From NCBI GenBank assembly GCA_029907705.1, contig JARYLJ010000007.1:1-61288 (forward strand): a stretch of 61,288 bases of DNA, given 5' to 3'. Within the stretch, counting starts at the first letter, position 1. Every line of letters starts with the position of its first letter. A model generated the notes under the pieces. That model worked only from the letters and a program-made list of their open reading frames with translations. It searched no databases and was not told the DNA's origin. The position numbers and the translations under genes are program-made. Source of the DNA: Methanomicrobiales archaeon (lineage in GTDB: Archaea; Halobacteriota; Methanomicrobia; Methanomicrobiales; JACTUA01). Of the stretch, positions 21,954 through 30,541 are shown piece by piece.

Positions 21954-23204
21954 ATGGCAGCCACGATAGTGGAGAAGATATTCTCCCGGAAGTGCGGGCG
22001 TGATATACGCGCGGGTGAGGTGGTGATGGCACCGGTCGATCGTGCGATGATACACGACATCACGGGGCCCCTCGCCATCGAAAAGATGCGGGAGATGGGT
22101 GGCGATAGGGTCTTCGATCCGGCGGGAGTGATCATGCTCTTCGATCACCAGATACCTGCGGACTCGATCCAGGCGGCGGAGATCCACCAGCGGATGCGCC
22201 TCTTTGCCGGGGAGCAGGGAATCGGAAACCTCGACCTGAGGGAGGGTATATGCCATCAGGTGATGATGGAGCGTGGCTACGCCGCTCCTGGCGAGATCGT
22301 CGTGGGCGCTGACTCGCACACCTGTATGTACGGTGCAGCCGGCGCTTTCGCTACTGGAATAGGATCGACCGATATGGGCTTTGTCTTGCGCTTCGGTGCA
22401 CTCTACTTCAGGGTGCCCGAGAGCATCCGGTGCGAAGTCGAGGGCAGGTTCCCCCGCCGTGTGGGTCCGAAGGACCTTATACTGTACATCACCGGCGCAG
22501 TAGGAGCCGATGGAGCCACCTACCAGGCACTGGAGTTCTCCGGCAATACCTTCTCGGAGATGGAGATGGCCGGCAGGATGACCTGCTGCAACATGGCGAT
22601 CGAAATGGGGGCGAAGGCAGGCATTGTACCGCCTGACGAGACTACATGGGCCTATATCAGGGAGAGGCGCACGATGGAGCCCTTCGACCTTCAGAGCGAC
22701 ACGGATGCAGAGTACACGGAGTTCCGATCCTTCTGCGTGGATGAACTGGAGCCGCAGGTCGCTCTCCCCCATAACGTGGACCGCGTGGTTAGCGTCGAAG
22801 AGACTGCCGGGGTGAGGGTGGACCAGGTCTTCATCGGTTCCTGCACGAACGGGAGATATGAGGATCTCAGCGAAGCGGCAGATGTACTGGGGAGTTCTGA
22901 ATTCAGTAAGCGTGTGAGGGTGATCGTGATCCCTGCATCCAGGGAGGAGTACCTGAAGGCGCTCCGCGCCGGCATCATCGAGCGCTTCATCGAGGCGGGA
23001 GCATTAGTGGAGGCGCCCTGCTGTGGCCCCTGCATGGGGGGTGCCTTCGGGCTGCTTGCCCCGAAGGAGGTCTCTCTGTCCACCTCTAACAGAAACTTCA
23101 GGGGACGACAGGGGAGCACGGAGGCATCGATATACCTCTGCTCTGCTGCAACCGCTGCGGCGAGCGCGATATATGGCGAGATTACTGACCCGCGGGAGGT
23201 GTGA
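21954..23204 (+). CDS. leuC: 3-isopropylmalate/homoaconitate dehydratase large subunit
   Basis: The large subunit of an aconitase-superfamily hydro-lyase, either isopropylmalate isomerase (leucine) or methanogen homoaconitase AksD (coenzyme B). The 416-residue protein has the archaeal short form: FSRKCGRDIRAGEVVMAPVD, the MLFDHQIPADS segment, VVGADSHTCMYGAAGAFATG, and the cluster cysteines in FIGSCTNGRYEDL and CCGPCMGGAFGLL. These three cysteines ligate the 4Fe-4S cluster. It overlaps the small-subunit gene by four bases, and a LeuB-like gene follows, so the three successive reactions are in one operon. Which pathway it serves cannot be settled here. Confidence 0.93.
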   Translation: MAATIVEKIFSRKCGRDIRAGEVVMAPVDRAMIHDITGPLAIEKMREMGGDRVFDPAGVIMLFDHQIPADSIQAAEIHQRMRLFAGEQGIGNLDLREGICHQVMMERGYAAPGEIVVGADSHTCMYGAAGAFATGIGSTDMGFVLRFGALYFRVPESIRCEVEGRFPRRVGPKDLILYITGAVGADGATYQALEFSGNTFSEMEMAGRMTCCNMAIEMGAKAGIVPPDETTWAYIRERRTMEPFDLQSDTDAEYTEFRSFCVDELEPQVALPHNVDRVVSVEETAGVRVDQVFIGSCTNGRYEDLSEAADVLGSSEFSKRVRVIVIPASREEYLKALRAGIIERFIEAGALVEAPCCGPCMGGAFGLLAPKEVSLSTSNRNFRGRQGSTEASIYLCSAATAAASAIYGEITDPREV

Positions 23205-23704
23205 GGATGAGGGTGTGGAAGTTCGGTGACGATGTGGATACAGACGCAATCATCCAGGGGAAGTACCTGACATTCTATAAACCCGAGGAGCTGGCGAAGC
23301 ATGCATTCGAGGGTGTCAGACCTGAGTTCGCCAAGGAGGTGAAGTGGGGAGACGCAATCGTTGCGGGCAGGAACTTCGGTTGCGGCTCCTCGCGCGAGCA
23401 TGCACCCCTCGCCCTGCTGGGCAGCGGTGTGAGTATGGTGATAGCGAAGTCCTTTGCGAGGATCTTCTACAGAAACGCAGTAAACACAGGTCTGCTCGTT
23501 CTTGTGTCGGAGGAGACCGACGCGGTGCAGGACGGAGCGGAGATCGAGGTGAACATGAAAGGGGGGTGGTTCGAGTCCGGAGGAAGGCGCTTCCGCATCG
23601 AACCGATCCCTGCGTTCATGAAGGAGATCGTCAGCGCAGGAGGGCTGGTGCCCTATGCGAGGGGACTGAAGGAGGTGCCCCTGTGTACCGGATCGCGGCG
23701 GTAG
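23201..23704 (+). CDS. leuD: 3-isopropylmalate/homoaconitate dehydratase small subunit
   Basis: The 167-residue small (swivel-domain) subunit. It opens [19 protein letters not shown], with the DVDTD motif, and contains [18 protein letters not shown], the conserved substrate-site signature, then [17 protein letters not shown]. After IIQGKYL come T-F, so the specificity loop reads YLTF. Isopropylmalate isomerases are described as YLRT and methanogen homoaconitases as variants such as YLVY, so the loop here matches neither exactly. It overlaps both neighbours (leuC end, leuB start), giving a tightly coupled LeuCDB unit. Confidence 0.92.
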
Positions 23705-24804
23705 GCGGGGACGGTATCGGCCCCGAGGTGCTCAATGAAGGCAGAAAGGTGCTTGAGGCCGCTGCGGAGCGCTTCGGTTTCGGGATTGAATGGGTGGAGA
23801 TGGATCTCGGCGCGGAGCGGTACCTGAGGACAGGTGAACTGCTGACAGAGGAGGATATGGAGCTCCTCTCCTCCTGCAGGGCGATATATTTCGGCGCCAT
23901 AGGAGATGAGCGGGTGAAGCCAGGAGTTCTGGAGAAGGGCATACTCCTGACAATGCGTTTCCACTTCGACCAGTTCGTGAACCTGCGACCCGTGAGGCTG
24001 CTCAGGGGGATAAAATCGCCACTCGCCGAAAAGGGACCTGAAGATATCGACTTCGTCGTCGTGAGGGAAAATACGGAGGACTTCTATGTCGGCTTGGGCT
24101 CCCGCTTCAGAAGAAGGGAGAAGAAAGAGCTTGCAATGATGAGGGAGCTGTATCATGCAAAGTTCGGGATCGATGCGGAGAGCGATGCGGAGGAGGTGGC
24201 ATATCAGATAGGAGTGATCACCCGCGAGGGGGCGCGGCGTGTCATCGATTTCGCCTTCGATCTGGCGCAGAGGCGCCGAAAGAGGCTCACCTCCGTCGAC
24301 AAGGCGAATGTCCTCACCGAGGTGTATGGGCTGTGGAGGGAGGTCTTCTCGGAGGAGGCGCGGAGATACCCCGATGTCCAGACGGAGTTCAATTTCGTCG
24401 ATGCGATAACGATGTGGTTCGTGAAGAACCCCGAATGGTTCGACGTCGTGGTGACGCCGAATATGTTCGGGGATATCATCACGGACCTGGGTGCGATCAT
24501 CCAAGGGGGACTGGGTCTTGCTCCGGGTGGGAATATCAATCCAGCGGGGGTCTCCATGTTCGAACCCATCCATGGATCCGCCCCGAAATACCGTGGGAAG
24601 GGTGTGGCGAACCCGATCGCCACCATCTGGGCGGGATCGATGCTTCTCGCACTTCTGAACGAGGCAGAGGCTTCCGAAGCGGTCATGAGGGCGATTGAGC
24701 AATCCATCGCGAAAGGCGTGGTGACCCGCGATCTGGGTGGCGGTGCATCCACGCGCGAGGTGGGAGATGAGATCGCTGCCGGTGTCCTGGGTGGCGGCTG
24801 CTGA
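23683..24804 (+). CDS. leuB: Isopropylmalate/isocitrate-type beta-decarboxylating dehydrogenase
   Basis: A 373-residue NAD-dependent beta-decarboxylating dehydrogenase. Landmarks: [35 protein letters not shown], the KANVLTE catalytic-lysine segment, VDAITMWFVKNPEWFDVVVT, NMFGDIITDLGAIIQGGLGL and FEPIHGSAPKYRGKGVANP. It follows LeuCD, so it should oxidise isopropylmalate or homoisocitrate (AksF). The helix segment FDQFVNLRPVRLL also recalls tartrate/malate dehydrogenases of this family, so substrate is inferred from context. The GTG start at 23683 lies inside leuD. The stop is one base from that of the convergent nitrogenase-like gene. Confidence 0.9.
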   Translation: MYRIAAVGGDGIGPEVLNEGRKVLEAAAERFGFGIEWVEMDLGAERYLRTGELLTEEDMELLSSCRAIYFGAIGDERVKPGVLEKGILLTMRFHFDQFVNLRPVRLLRGIKSPLAEKGPEDIDFVVVRENTEDFYVGLGSRFRRREKKELAMMRELYHAKFGIDAESDAEEVAYQIGVITREGARRVIDFAFDLAQRRRKRLTSVDKANVLTEVYGLWREVFSEEARRYPDVQTEFNFVDAITMWFVKNPEWFDVVVTPNMFGDIITDLGAIIQGGLGLAPGGNINPAGVSMFEPIHGSAPKYRGKGVANPIATIWAGSMLLALLNEAEASEAVMRAIEQSIAKGVVTRDLGGGASTREVGDEIAAGVLGGGC

Positions 24805-24805
24805 G

Positions 24806-25945
24806 CTATCGCTCCCCAATCTTTCTGTTCATCAGCGCGTTCAACAGCTCCTCAAATAGAGAGAGGGTACCCTCAGGACCGATCAGCGCCCTCGACCTCA
24901 GCCGGATCTGTCCCCTCACGGGCAGCGTGATGGGGACGAATGCGGCCTCTCCTGCTAGAGAACGCTCGTACGAGGAGCCCAGGATGAGATCGGGCTTCTC
25001 CCCCTCCAGGCTCTCCTTCACCATGCTCAGATCGGGGCAGCGTTTCACCCCGAACCTGCTCTCTCGTGGATCGTTTCTGGAACCGATGAACGCGATTGTC
25101 GCGTCCAGGTATTCGCTCAGCCACTGGGCGACCGCAACCGCATATGCGAAGTTCCCATATATCGCGGCTGTTGGCGGATCATGCCTCTTAAGATACTTGT
25201 CGCAGGCGTAGGCAACCTTCTCTTCCGCCCTCTCCACTTCTGCGAGGACTGACGATACATCTGCATCGGGAAATCGCCTTTCCAGTCTCCTGAAGGCACC
25301 CGATGTCTCATGAAGACCGAGGAGGGAGCCTGTCTCTTCTCCCGCGCCGGATGCGAGGTCGGGGTTCAGGTTCAGGGTGAGTGGTCCCGCCCGCCATACA
25401 TCCTCCACCGATCCTGCGCAGAACGTGGTCGCGATCGGGATCACTGCCGAGATCAGGAGTCTCTTCGCTTCGAGGAGGTTGCCATCGAAGAATGGATCCA
25501 TCAAATTCAGGCCATCGATGTTTACACCCTCCATCCCGGGGTCCACGCGAGGCTTGAGCGCCTCCAGTGCTATCCTGTAGCCTGTCTCCATACTGCCGAG
25601 GAATCCCGGGGCATCGACGATCACTGCATTCACTTCCCTGAGCATCGCCTGCATATCCTCGCCGATGACAGCTGGCACGCAGGTGGTGACCAGGGCGATG
25701 AGTGCGTACCTCCCCTCCAGTTCGCGGATCACCTCCTTCACCCGCTCCTCCGAGCCGAAAATTACCTCGCGCTCGAGTATCTGGGTTCCGTAAACAGTTC
25801 TGGGAAGGATGGAGGCGGGGTAGAAGTAGCATCCGCTGGACCCGTGGATCACCACTCCCAGATCTCCGAAGCCCGAGAGGCAGGAGACCGCACCTGCCAT
25901 CGCGCAGGGCCAGAGCGGATTATCGCATCCACGCATGTATCGCAC
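24806..25945 (-). CDS. NifD/NifK-like nitrogenase component 1 protein (K-like)
   Basis: A 379-residue protein of the oxidoreductase/nitrogenase component 1 superfamily, much shorter than true NifD or NifK (about 480-520). Three cysteines stand at the bridging-cluster positions: C14 (PLWPCAMAGA), C39 (VIHGSSGCYFYP) and C89 (VTTCVPAVIGED). Later segments include IATTFCAGSVEDVW and LILGSSYERSLAG. In the region where NifD has its FeMo-cofactor cysteine (NLxHC), this protein reads LNLNPDLASGAGEE, with no cysteine. It overlaps the D-like gene by 26 bases (17 if starting at M4). The short size resembles CfbD of F430 synthesis, but CfbD is a homodimer, whereas here two distinct subunits are encoded. 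Confidence 0.8.
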   Translation of the reverse strand: MRYMRGCDNPLWPCAMAGAVSCLSGFGDLGVVIHGSSGCYFYPASILPRTVYGTQILEREVIFGSEERVKEVIRELEGRYALIALVTTCVPAVIGEDMQAMLREVNAVIVDAPGFLGSMETGYRIALEALKPRVDPGMEGVNIDGLNLMDPFFDGNLLEAKRLLISAVIPIATTFCAGSVEDVWRAGPLTLNLNPDLASGAGEETGSLLGLHETSGAFRRLERRFPDADVSSVLAEVERAEEKVAYACDKYLKRHDPPTAAIYGNFAYAVAVAQWLSEYLDATIAFIGSRNDPRESRFGVKRCPDLSMVKESLEGEKPDLILGSSYERSLAGEAAFVPITLPVRGQIRLRSRALIGPEGTLSLFEELLNALMNRKIGER

Positions 25946-26975
25946 GCCTCCAGCGGTGCAGCATCCTCTTCAGCCCCGTGGTTCCGACAGGAGGGGGTAT
26001 GGGTATGGGTACTCTGACGCCGCTTTCAGAGGCGATGAGGCCGACCGCCTCCACCACCTCTCTTACGAACCTCTGGTCCAGCGTACTGCGTTCGAGCCTG
26101 ATCCTCTCCCCTTCGAGATCCGAGAAGCCCACCAGCATCTCCTGCTGGTGAGCCTGCTCCTTTCGGACGGGCTCCCTCACGTCCATGCCCAGCATCTCCC
26201 CCACCATGCACAGAAATTCGAGCGTTCCTTCGAGGCCAATCGGGAAGGATGATATGTACGGCGACCCGAAACGTTTCATCAGCTCCTCCCCGACCGTCGA
26301 AAGCCGTGATTCCCTCAGTATATTGAGGCGAACAGTGCTGAGGAGTCTGATATCATTCACGCAGCACTTCCTTGCGAACCTGAGCGTGACTTTTTCGCCA
26401 AAGAGGGCAAGAAGACGGCTCACCTCATGGAAGTTTTCCTCCACCTCGAACTCGAGGTTCTTCTCCCCGATGACCGCGATCCCTGACTTTTCTGATTCAT
26501 CTGTATCTACCTGCCGGGCAAGGGTGATCAGTGCGTTTGCAACGCCCTTTTCAAAGCCGCCCCCGAGAAACCCGGAAGTGGGAATACAGATCACAGGTAG
26601 TTCCCAGTCTTTCCGGCAGATCGCCTGCAGATCGTCCCCGATAGTATCCACGATGCAGGTGGAGAGAACATATATGCAGGAAGGCGTTAGGAGCGATGCC
26701 TCTCGGATCACCTCCTCCAGCGCTCCTTCGCCTCCGAAGATGATTTCCTCCTCACACAGGTCAGTTGCAATGATTCTGGGAAGAGAATCACTACCAAATT
26801 CCTGCAGGGTTGCATGGATGAGAGAGAAGTTATGGTGTGCACATCCCGAAGGCCCATGCACGATGGTGATGCTATCAGTCACCCCTGTCGTGATCGAGAG
26901 AGCGCCGAGCAGGGTGCATCCCTCCATGCGCGATGATTCACAGAGCTGAGGAAGGACCTTCATCTGCCAGTTCAC
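25920..26975 (-). CDS. NifD/NifK-like nitrogenase component 1 protein (D-like)
   Basis: A 351-residue second component-1-type subunit, partner of the overlapping 24806-25945 product. Cysteines at family positions are C20 (MEGCTLLGA), C45 (IVHGPSGCAHHN) and C107 (VLSTCIVDTIGDD), the last being the near-invariant STCxxxxIGDD motif. The segment equivalent to the NifD cofactor-cysteine region reads VRLNILRESRLSTVGEE and lacks Cys. The GTG start at 26975 could also be ATG 26963. A TATA-like CTTTATACAG (27051-27061, minus strand) may give it a promoter apart from the H gene, 326 bases upstream. Cluster type and substrate are unknown; transfer of electrons from the H protein is inferred from the superfamily. 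Confidence 0.8.
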   Translation of the reverse strand: MNWQMKVLPQLCESSRMEGCTLLGALSITTGVTDSITIVHGPSGCAHHNFSLIHATLQEFGSDSLPRIIATDLCEEEIIFGGEGALEEVIREASLLTPSCIYVLSTCIVDTIGDDLQAICRKDWELPVICIPTSGFLGGGFEKGVANALITLARQVDTDESEKSGIAVIGEKNLEFEVEENFHEVSRLLALFGEKVTLRFARKCCVNDIRLLSTVRLNILRESRLSTVGEELMKRFGSPYISSFPIGLEGTLEFLCMVGEMLGMDVREPVRKEQAHQQEMLVGFSDLEGERIRLERSTLDQRFVREVVEAVGLIASESGVRVPIPIPPPVGTTGLKRMLHRWRRAIHAWMR

Positions 26976-27301: not shown

Positions 27302-28114
27302 TTACAGGAAAGAGATGGCGAGCTCCTCGAGGCGATCCTGATCCATGGGGGTGGGGATAGTTCTTATGGTGTTCTCCAGGATGTGCCACGCCAGATCTCT
27401 ATAAAGGCCTGCCTGCGCAGAATCGGGCTCGTACTCGATGACCGTCATTTTATGAAGCTCTGCCAGCTGTACGATCCGATCCCGAGGGATGAAGCCCACA
27501 AACCTACCTCCTATCTCCTGTGAGAACTCCTCCACCAGCTCGCGCTCCCTCTCGATGCTGGCGGAGTTGCAGATTACCCCGCCCAGCCTGCATCGGCTCC
27601 GCCCCTGCTGTGCCAGCCTTGCAATCGCCCTGCAGATGTTGTTCGCTGCATAGAGGGACATCAGTTCGCCAGAAGTGACCAAATACACCTCCTCCGCATA
27701 ACCCTCACGCATCGGCATGGCGAACCCGCCGCAGACGACGTCGCCGAGCACATCGTAGACGATGATCTCCCCCTTCAACGCCCCTAGCCTCTCCAGGAGC
27801 TGGAAGGTGGCGATGATGCCGCGGCCCGCGCACCCGACCCCGGGTTCGGGACCCCCCGCCTCCACGCACCTGACGCCGCGATATCCGGTGTGGACGACAT
27901 CCTGCAAGAGAATCTCCTTTTCTCCACGTTCGCGGACGAGATCCAGTACCGTGGGTATCCTCGCCCCGTGGAGGAGCATGCGTGTGCTGTCATGCTTCGG
28001 ATCGCACCCGATCTGCATCGTCTTCAGGCCATTTTGGGCGAAGGCGGCGGAGAGATTTGCCGCGGTGGTAGACTTGCCAATTCCCCCCTTACCGTAAAGG
28101 GCGATCTGCCTCAT
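27302..28114 (-). CDS. NifH-like iron protein (CfbC/NflH-type)
   Basis: A 270-residue P-loop iron protein. The nucleotide loop GKGGIGKST spans residues 8-16. C95 ([10 protein letters not shown]) and C128 ([13 protein letters not shown]) are the ligands of the 4Fe-4S cluster shared by a homodimer. R98 is the residue ADP-ribosylated in true NifH, and YDVLGD is the switch [17 protein letters not shown] and the C-terminal [12 protein letters not shown] also match. It should pass electrons with ATP hydrolysis to the two downstream component-1 subunits. On sequence alone NifH, CfbC and other group IV reductase proteins are hard to separate. A leader of about 100 bases and a short dyad precede it. 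Confidence 0.9.
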
Positions 28115-28622: not shown

Positions 28623-28997
28623 ATGTTCACCCGGCAGGAGCGGCTCGCATTGTCCCTTCTTATCCTCGTCACAGCCATTGTATTCGCAGGAATTGCGATA
28701 CTGGAGGGGATCGGAAGAATCCCCTTTGCTAAAAGTTACGATCCCGGACTCCCCGACGGCACGCTGGTGCTCCTGGAAGGGAGGGTCGAGAGGGCTGCAC
28801 AGACCAGAGAGGGTGGACACCTCCTCTTGCGTGTGAACGGCACGAATGTCTTCGTCCCCTCCCCTGCATCGGGCGGGATCATACTCCAGGGCGGGGAGAC
28901 CGTCAGGATCCTGGGAACCCTGCAGACCTACCGTGGAGAGAAGGAGGTGGTCGTGGAGGATGCCGGGGATATCGTTCTTATATCGTTCGAGAGGTGA
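28623..28997 (+). CDS. Membrane-anchored OB-fold protein
   Basis: A 124-residue protein with one N-terminal transmembrane segment (LALSLLILVTAIVFAGIAIL) followed by an extracytoplasmic domain. That domain is beta-rich: GTLVLLEGRVERAAQTREGG, LLLRVNGTNVFVPS, QGGETVRILGTLQTYRG and EVVVEDAGDIVLI. This is the pattern of an OB fold of the nucleic-acid-binding or NfeD-like type. The frame is open from 28578, but ATG 28623 suits the expected promoter. It is divergent from the winged-helix regulator. Function unknown. Confidence 0.65.
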   Translation: MFTRQERLALSLLILVTAIVFAGIAILEGIGRIPFAKSYDPGLPDGTLVLLEGRVERAAQTREGGHLLLRVNGTNVFVPSPASGGIILQGGETVRILGTLQTYRGEKEVVVEDAGDIVLISFER

Positions 28998-29049
28998 AGT
29001 CTCGCGTTGAGACTCTGGAATTCCTATTCATGACCTGTCCCTCATACTC

Positions 29050-30432
29050 CGGTATTCGCCGTGCGCTGGGGGGGCCAGACACGTCCAGGCAGTCCCCATG
29101 AGATCGGACCTGCGGCATGATGCCTGCAGGGCTCGCGGAAGTGTTCAACCCTCCATAGAGGTCGAACCGGATGCCTGAGCCTACGAAGACCTTCCGCACA
29201 CCTTTCACCGTGCTGACCGCCGGGAGGAGCTGAAGGTATCTCTCTGACATGTGATCCAGGTTCTGGCAGGCATCGATGCAGCGCTGCCACTCGGATGCAC
29301 CGCTTTTGTACCGGAATCTGCACCCGATCCCGTACATGTTGGCGCTCGCTCCCCCACTAAATCGGTGATCACGCCCCGAAACTCCTTCATTTTCGTGATC
29401 CTCTTCACCTCGCGCAGAACCGATTCGATGCTCCTGCTCTGGACAATCCACCCCTGGTGCATAACCAGCGCACAGAACGCGCATTCGCCGATGCACCCGC
29501 GGTGGCTCACCATCGAGAAACGCACAGGCTCCGGTGCCGGGATCGATTCTATACATGAAGGATGTGATTCCCTCGTGAACGGGAGCTCGTCAATGCGGTC
29601 CAGCTCATCCGTCTCCAGAGGTTATGGGGGTGGATTCTGGCGATCGCCACCTTTGGACGCGGCTGCAGCACGGACCTGCCCCTCACCGGATCCTGCTCGC
29701 CATGGCAGGCAGCGAATGCGATCGCGTGGGCCTTATGGTCCACGACGACCCCCGTGTAGTCCCCGATCCCCACATATTCATCCCACGACATGGTACGGTA
29801 TTCATGCAGCCCGATCTTTTCGCAAGTACCGGGGATCCTCCTTATTCCTCCTATCTCTTTTCTGCTGCTCAGGCTCATCACGATCGCGCATACTTGCCAC
29901 CCCTACGCCATAAACCAGTATCTCTGCCGGTGCGTCTGCCAGTATGGACTGCCTCACCGGCCCTGACCAGTCATCGTAGTGCGCGAACCTTCTCAGACTC
30001 GCCCCGATTCCGCCGATGACGATCGGACAACCAAATACAGGGCGTGCAGCCTCTCTATATACACGATCGTCCCCTCTCGGGGCGTCAGCACCGCCCCACG
30101 GCGGAATATACATCCTTTTTCCGCCGCTTCACAGAGGGCGTGTGATGGTCCAACATCGAGTCCACATCGTCTGAGGTGACAGCAAAGAAGAGCTCTCGCC
30201 TTCCCGGTGCGGTAATATCCCTTCCGCTCCGCCAGTCGGGCTGCGCAATCAACCTCCCAATCATTGAGGTGCAGAAGAGAGGATGATCCACGCACGCATC
30301 CCCGCTGACCAACACGATGTCGAACTTTCCATGCCCTGCCCTGTCTGCTTCTCCCATGCTCATCGGGAGATACCTGCGGTGGTTCTCGTCGTCCTTCACA
30401 CGGACGCCTCCCTGAAATCTTTTCAATGGCAT
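29050..30432 (-). pseudogene. ygiQ: Decayed YgiQ-type radical SAM protein gene
   Basis: Pieces of a YgiQ-family (UPF0313) radical SAM protein appear in order along the minus strand but in changing frames. From the 5' end: FDIVLVSGDACVDHPLF and [12 protein letters not shown] (30085-30432); [20 protein letters not shown] and EILVYGVG (29802-30113); EYRTMSWDEYVGIGD and HGEQDPVRGRSVLQ (29549-29881); MRFSMVSHRGCIGECAFCAL with an intact CxxxCxxC (29205-29525); then ASANMYGIGC and KVFVGSGIRFD (28978-29556 frame). At least four frameshifts are needed, and the expected EAxGYRVGI before AQPDW is missing. The far C-terminus is not recognisable. Neighbouring genes are intact, so poor sequence quality is less likely than real decay. 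Confidence 0.85.
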
Positions 30433-30541
30433 CGTATAACTGGTTCACCCGTTGCATGCATCACAGGAAAATCGTAACAAGATCGGGCATCTACAGGGAA
30501 AGAATAAAAGAACGGAGGTTGATTCTTTATCGGGTGATATC

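Follow-up and report, generated by a model that had tools for sequence, protein, structure and literature searches.

In DPOR (BchNB/ChlNB), a cofactor-free and heteromeric enzyme supplied by a NifH-type donor, the bridging Fe-S cluster is a 4Fe-4S cluster held by three Cys and one Asp. Among the characterised members described in PMC12552129, enzymes without a cofactor contain 4Fe-4S clusters, and P-clusters accompany a large active-site cluster. MAR is described in the same source as the only Nfl enzyme known with both P- and 8Fe-9S-C clusters, and six P-cluster cysteines together with the cofactor cysteine were inferred there for the ancestor that MAR shares with nitrogenase. CfbD is homodimeric (PMC12176620). 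Pairs resembling NifE and NifN, with three P-cluster cysteines each and without the FeMoco ligands, were already recognised as a class in 2012, Archaea included; a 4Fe-4S cluster was proposed for these cofactor-less six-Cys pairs, and an H-D fusion type is mentioned as well (Dos Santos et al., 2012; PMC3464626).

In this work, a set of three genes, H, D and K, was analysed in a 61,288-nt stretch of a Methanomicrobiales genome (contig JARYLJ010000007.1; hereafter the window). The genes follow one another in this order on the minus strand, with an overlap of 26 nt between D and K. As far as the accessible text of the literature extends, no description of this Methanomicrobiales H-D-K set was found. 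The genes, together with the C-terminal part of D, are the following:

27302..28114, minus strand: H, NifH/CfbC-type Fe protein, 270 aa; NF033200 410.9 bits; C95 and C128
25920..26975, minus strand: D-like subunit, 351 aa, GTG start; PF00148 175.4 bits, profile positions 1-265 of 399; mean pLDDT 92.1; in 201 of 232 genomes
25923..26126, minus strand: D residues 284-351, reduced domain III with the conserved tail PVGTxGxxRxLHRWRR; the Pfam match stops at residue 283, and the tail is seen in the ortholog alignment
24806..25945, minus strand: K-like subunit, 379 aa from GTG (376 from an internal ATG); PF00148 152.8 bits, profile positions 1-398 of 399; mean pLDDT 92.0; in 205 of 232 genomes

The residue numbers of K drop by three if the start is the internal ATG (residue 4). 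Both D and K exceeded the cut-off of PF00148 (nitrogenase component 1 type oxidoreductases; 28.6 bits). The match of D ends at profile position 265, so most of the third domain is gone and D is short. The initial annotation had called both subunits short, which applies to D, mainly through the loss of most of domain III, a loss that it had not noticed, and not to K, which covers the whole family profile. The NCBIfam equivalog cut-offs for nifD (D, 87.4 against 653.55 bits) and nifK (K, 50.2 against 427.3 bits) were missed, as were the NCBIfam cut-offs for BchB (D 58.3 and K 16 against 490.35 bits) and BchN (D, 35.7 against 419.95 bits) and that of TIGR03282 for CfbD (D 47.3 and K 45.9 against 268.4 bits). 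The best NCBIfam model was NifE for K, and NifE was nearly the best for D.

The AlphaFold2 single-chain models of D (81 orthologs) and K (61 orthologs) both have the nitrogenase component-1 type fold. The top row of VIA-align was DPOR BchB for K (8vqh_B; Z 38.3, rmsd 2.4, 369 aligned) as well as for D (3aer_B; Z 30.2, rmsd 3.3, 325 aligned), and the next rows were nitrogenase, MAR and NifEN chains at Z of about 34 and about 28. On the other hand, the Foldseek E-value ranking placed nitrogenase chains first for both models, so the likeness to DPOR is suggestive and not decisive; in these models it may also partly reflect chain length.

Six cysteines at the spacing of the P-cluster ligands had been noted initially, and this was borne out by a 27-sequence alignment, in which D C20/C45/C107 and K C14/C39/C89 occupy the ligand columns of NifD and NifK, and by the conservation among orthologs. 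We take the corresponding Azotobacter residues to be NifD C62/C88/C154 and NifK C70/C95/C153. The ORFs of D and K are open at the coordinates given above, and the codons of all six ligand cysteines are present. These codons and those of other conserved positions are:

26916..26918, minus strand: D C20, first P-cluster-type ligand; Cys in 106/106 orthologs; first P-cluster Cys column of NifD
26841..26843, minus strand: D C45, second ligand; 106/106 orthologs
26655..26657, minus strand: D C107, third ligand; 106/106 orthologs
26616..26618, minus strand: D C120, extra conserved Cys; 99/106 orthologs; Cys also in two NifE rows
26310..26315, minus strand: D R221-E222, site of the NifD/NifE cofactor Cys; R221 in 81/81, Glu or Asp at 222 in 78/81 orthologs
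25925..25927, minus strand: K C7, extra Cys; 84/85 orthologs, one gap
25904..25906, minus strand: K C14, first K ligand; 84/85 orthologs, one gap
25829..25831, minus strand: K C39, second K ligand; 85/85 orthologs; BchB has Asp in this column
25679..25681, minus strand: K C89, third K ligand; 85/85 orthologs

The cysteine counts refer to deduplicated orthologs, leaving out exact C-terminal duplicates, D ORFs of less than 300 aa, K ORFs of less than 330 aa and scores of 300 bits or less. The D trio is invariant, the K trio is nearly so, and 7 of the 8 remaining D cysteines drift among the orthologs; chance is thus excluded for the ligand cysteines. In the AlphaFold2 models, they are placed at or beside the starts of helices (21-29, 43-59 and 107-112 in D; 15-23, 37-46 and 89-94 in K). 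Two further cysteines, neither of them mentioned in the initial annotation, are conserved. K-C7 has no Cys counterpart in any other family row of the 27-sequence alignment and lies at the N-terminus of the K model, where confidence is low, while D-C120 shares its column with a Cys in both NifE rows. The K118 column, judged by eye to be equivalent to the Ser188-type residue of NifK, is mostly Asp, with Ser in 2 of 61 sequences, and this feature of the P-cluster is therefore not conserved in K.

The cofactor-Cys column of NifD, NifE and NflS is occupied by R221 in D, and in the 27-sequence alignment K has no Cys in it either. The phmmer pairwise alignment sets E222 in the column instead of R221, and neither residue is Cys. 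The absence of this cysteine from both proteins, which had been read from the letters of the window, thus stood, and at the FeMoco Cys of the NifDK alpha subunit D has an Arg throughout. It was considered that DK might be a NifEN-like scaffold or insertase carrying an L-cluster, e.g., for delivery to the MCR activation complex, in which such clusters are found; the NifE scores of both subunits would agree with this, as would the use of L-clusters in MCR activation and the essential role of NifB in methanogens (PMC12176620). We nevertheless regard such a role as very improbable, because the Cys that binds the cluster in NifE, NifD and NflS is an invariant Arg in D. Moreover, to our knowledge all methanogens need MCR activation, whereas the genus of G197, one of the genomes treated below, lacks DK.

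The likeness to DPOR proposed in the initial annotation can be kept in part. It extends to the missing cofactor Cys, the top rank of BchB in VIA-align and, presumably, to the heteromeric composition, the NifH-type donor and a bridging Fe-S cluster, but not to the ligands. D and K retain three Cys per subunit in addition to K-C7; BchB has Pro and Asp in the ligand columns, and K C39 and D C45 are Cys and not Asp. The loss of most of domain III from D and the presence of K-C7 also set the pair apart from DPOR. MarDK and IsrDK of group IV are likewise nitrogenase-like H-D-K systems, and MarDK has six P-cluster cysteines, but it holds the 8Fe-9S-C cluster via its Cys (PMC12552129), at which D has Arg.

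With the 'yellow' node pairs of Dos Santos et al. (2012; PMC3464626), D and K share, as far as the text allows a comparison, six P-cluster-type cysteines, adjacent paired genes and probably the lack of both FeMoco ligands. Of that class, defined by the absence of Cys275 and His442 from six-Cys proteins, the cysteine part fits D/K, and the His region appears to be gone together with domain III. In the section of that paper on these pairs, no comparable H-D-K set of Methanomicrobiales is mentioned, and the Mlab_1040/1039 pair given in it has 2 + 1 cysteines. The truncation of D, the extra cysteine K-C7 and the probably shared Fe protein of the CfbC type, which occur here across an order, are what is new in D/K relative to the description available from PMC3464626.

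We hypothesize that DK is a cofactor-free D2K2 reductase that is fed by H via a six-Cys cluster between the subunits and acts by reducing an organic molecule bound to it, most likely a tetrapyrrole, a reading to which we give roughly even chances. D and K would assemble as the heterotetrameric catalytic component, and H, a NifH/CfbC-type ATPase, would dock and hand over single electrons. These would reach a cluster bridging D and K, to which each subunit would contribute three cysteine ligands. The pocket in which the relatives house FeMoco or the L-cluster would be open in DK, since there is no cofactor Cys and most of domain III of D is gone, and an organic substrate could then bind directly and be reduced there, as protochlorophyllide is in DPOR. 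That DK is instead a true small-molecule nitrogenase-like catalyst, working with the P-cluster alone and without a pocket for an organic substrate, is the least probable of the explanations considered here: the six P-cluster ligands are indeed kept, but with domain III lost the cavity should lie open, and we know of no characterised member in which the P-cluster alone is more than an electron relay. Limited reductions by cofactor-less pairs were, however, speculated upon in 2012 (PMC3464626).

As to the nature of the cluster in the proposed reductase, it is tentatively suggested that the Methanomicrobiales DK carries either a genuine P-cluster or a novel type of cluster in which K-C7 is a seventh thiolate, and that it reduces a tetrapyrrole directly with no catalytic metallocofactor and with an Fe protein shared with CfbD. 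If this is true, DK would be the first cofactor-free P-cluster enzyme, the two great clusters of nitrogenase would be able to exist apart, and a living system would be at hand for asking which of them came first. The presence of all six P-cluster ligands without the cofactor ligand, across most of an order, breaks the pairing of P-cluster and large cluster as it is set out for the characterised members in PMC12552129.

D and K together are a core trait of the order Methanomicrobiales. Using an 8-row D alignment as the query (E<=1e-50), D was found in 201 of 232 genomes of the order, in 124 of the 135 good ones and in 35 of 40 genera; K was present in 205 genomes, including 126 of the good ones. 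Both genes occur in 199 genomes and neither in 25, while 2 have D alone and 6 have K alone, by a hand comparison of the two lists in which unlisted genomes were inferred from gaps in the numbering; the 8 discordant genomes are drafts, in which the absence may be only apparent. This co-occurrence fits unlike subunits of one enzyme, as the initial annotation had supposed. In a 392-genome sample of the phylum, no D ortholog was found outside Methanomicrobiales, all matches of at least 332 bits lying within the order and the next one reaching 160 bits. Furthermore, among the best 80 loci of a contig scan, 76 carry titles naming Methanomicrobiales or a group within it, and the other 4 are titled just Euryarchaeota. 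No natural in-frame D-K fusion was found, D and K being in different frames wherever they overlap. K is retained even at a distance of 0.6-3.7 kb from D, often inverted, and in 12 of the 80 loci it was not found in the stretch examined around D, some of these having about 6 kb of room downstream. In the Methanoculleus-type loci L080, L086, L090, L092, L099 and L126, D and K are 2-3.7 kb apart, with K often inverted, and the gene between them is presumably universal-stress-like.

H exceeded the cut-off of NF033200 (CfbC), which is 402 bits, and stayed just under that of the NifH model (393.0 against 394.35 bits); its C95 and C128 belong to the usual 4Fe-4S motifs. By motif matching, 78 of 80 loci have H immediately upstream of D, and the remaining two are cut by the contig end. 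It is also the sole strong NifH homolog of the source genome (G000; E 1.5e-108, the next PF00142 match being at 1.4e-11). The CfbD of this genome (TIGR03282, 496.3 bits against the cut-off of 268.4) is located on a different contig, beside CfbE and without a reductase gene. In each of the complete genomes G042, G055 and G102 there is one NifH-family match at 1e-40, and these genomes, like the source genome, have both D and K and, at the short CfbD position, a family match that BLAST identified as CfbD in G055. With CfbD encoded elsewhere, lacking a reductase of its own, and with no second strong NifH homolog in the source genome, CfbD and DK probably draw on one and the same Fe protein. H would then also feed CfbD in coenzyme F430 synthesis, as one Fe protein with two catalytic partners.

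In G197 and G129, the stretch that separates H from a conserved 140-aa gene no longer contains D and K; in G157 this gene comes next after K. H and the match at the CfbD position are kept in both genomes. We take G197 to be Methanospirillum hungatei, and on this identification Methanospirillum lost D and K and kept H and CfbD. Most simply, H would be the CfbC of the order, with DK as a second client that can be lost. On the other hand, in a tree of H proteins, H does not group with Methanosarcinales CfbC and falls within an unresolved set, outside the clade of the CfbC whose genes are beside CfbD in other orders, which counts against strict CfbC orthology. CfbD with CfbC resembles D/K in its short subunits, in having no cofactor and probably in using the same H; it is, however, a homodimer from a single gene that exists separately in the source genome, whereas DK is a pair, and the CfbD copy of G000 lacks the first ligand Cys, whereas D/K keep all.

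In an IQ-TREE analysis of 60 rows without Bch proteins, D grouped as sister with the D portion of fused H-D proteins (100/99), and K likewise with the K of the fused H-D systems (92/82). The same sister pairs were obtained in an earlier tree with Bch rows (97/81 for D and 97/95 for K). One row, pY_a_L198, is of the K type by placement despite its label, with no effect on D or K. The fused H-D proteins and their K, known from Methanospirillum and Methanosarcinaceae-type genomes, are like D/K in that the D part has three cysteines and no cofactor Cys, and differ in the fusion itself, in their location and in a K with one of the three ligand cysteines left, so that the cluster of the sister enzyme must differ from that of D/K. 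Their genes sit with those for FecCD permease, Peripla_BP_2, ABC, CbiZ, CbiK, ChlI/D-like and CobN proteins, i.e., in a corrinoid transport and chelatase setting, which makes the fused H-D/K a candidate for an uncharacterised corrinoid- or tetrapyrrole-linked system and connects D/K, through shared ancestry, with a corrinoid or metal-tetrapyrrole setting. At L214 (6494-9948) and at L263-L274, the fused H-D protein and K occur repeatedly with the FecCD-type importer, CbiZ, CbiK, ChlI/D-like and CobN. A complementary distribution of D/K and the fused system was considered and rejected: G113 has both, and G129, G200 and G203 have no match to the fused type.

The relationship of DK to the H-D/K clade, which is found among corrinoid genes, to CfbD and to DPOR favours a tetrapyrrole, of the Ni or Co type, as the substrate of DK, which by this analogy is plausible. 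The immediate neighbourhood counts against it: no pathway was recognised around D/K, the neighbours being of the housekeeping type, with PRK, TrkH, an ODP flavodiiron-type protein and homoaconitase/IPMDH-type genes, and there was no tetrapyrrole gene in the annotated neighbourhoods. A less probable alternative is that DK is a cofactor-free reductase with a substrate other than a tetrapyrrole, e.g., a small unsaturated metabolite or an Fe-S or thiol substrate. Other group IV enzymes act on small-molecule C-S bonds, MAR with a cofactor (PMC12552129; PMC11423573), but the cofactor-free DPOR and CfbCD both reduce tetrapyrroles, as given in PMC12552129. The corrinoid and chelatase clusters of the closest clade and the Fe protein probably held in common with CfbD also speak for the tetrapyrrole. 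In the window, homoaconitase large and small subunit genes and an isopropylmalate/isocitrate-type dehydrogenase gene converge on K (21954-24804), and gene clusters of these homoaconitase/dehydrogenase types were found in 38, 32 and 28 of the 81 loci compared.

A specific tetrapyrrole step was also considered, namely that DK substitutes for the missing cobalt-precorrin-6A reductase CbiJ, whose reaction is a tetrapyrrole double-bond reduction, in B12 synthesis. By the PF02571 model, CbiJ was found in none of 49 Methanomicrobiales genomes, despite CbiC (PF02570) in 21 of 21. However, G129 and G203 have CbiC without CbiJ, and no family member except at the short CfbD position, so another protein does the CbiJ step there, and the proposal is very unlikely. 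A role of DK as a general CbiJ substitute is not supported either, since DK-less genomes among the 49 also lack CbiJ.

The reductase proposed here for DK points to an unknown reductive step in most Methanomicrobiales and to one Fe protein with two catalytic partners. Methanoculleus, which is among the Methanomicrobiales with the presumed DK step, is culturable, and gene deletion in it has been reported (PMC9081873).

Two further observations concern the surroundings and relatives of the locus. Upstream of H on the minus strand of the window (28978-30457), short ORFs in different frames resemble pieces of one radical SAM protein, presumably YgiQ-like, which reads like a broken gene or assembly errors. 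A nitrogenase relative encoded by a single gene at L211 (7449-8627; G000:C57:11481-12584) retains Cys in the column of the cofactor ligand. Genes of the ChlI/D-like and CobN types lie some 3.6 kb away, and the protein is a candidate L-cluster binder outside nitrogenase.
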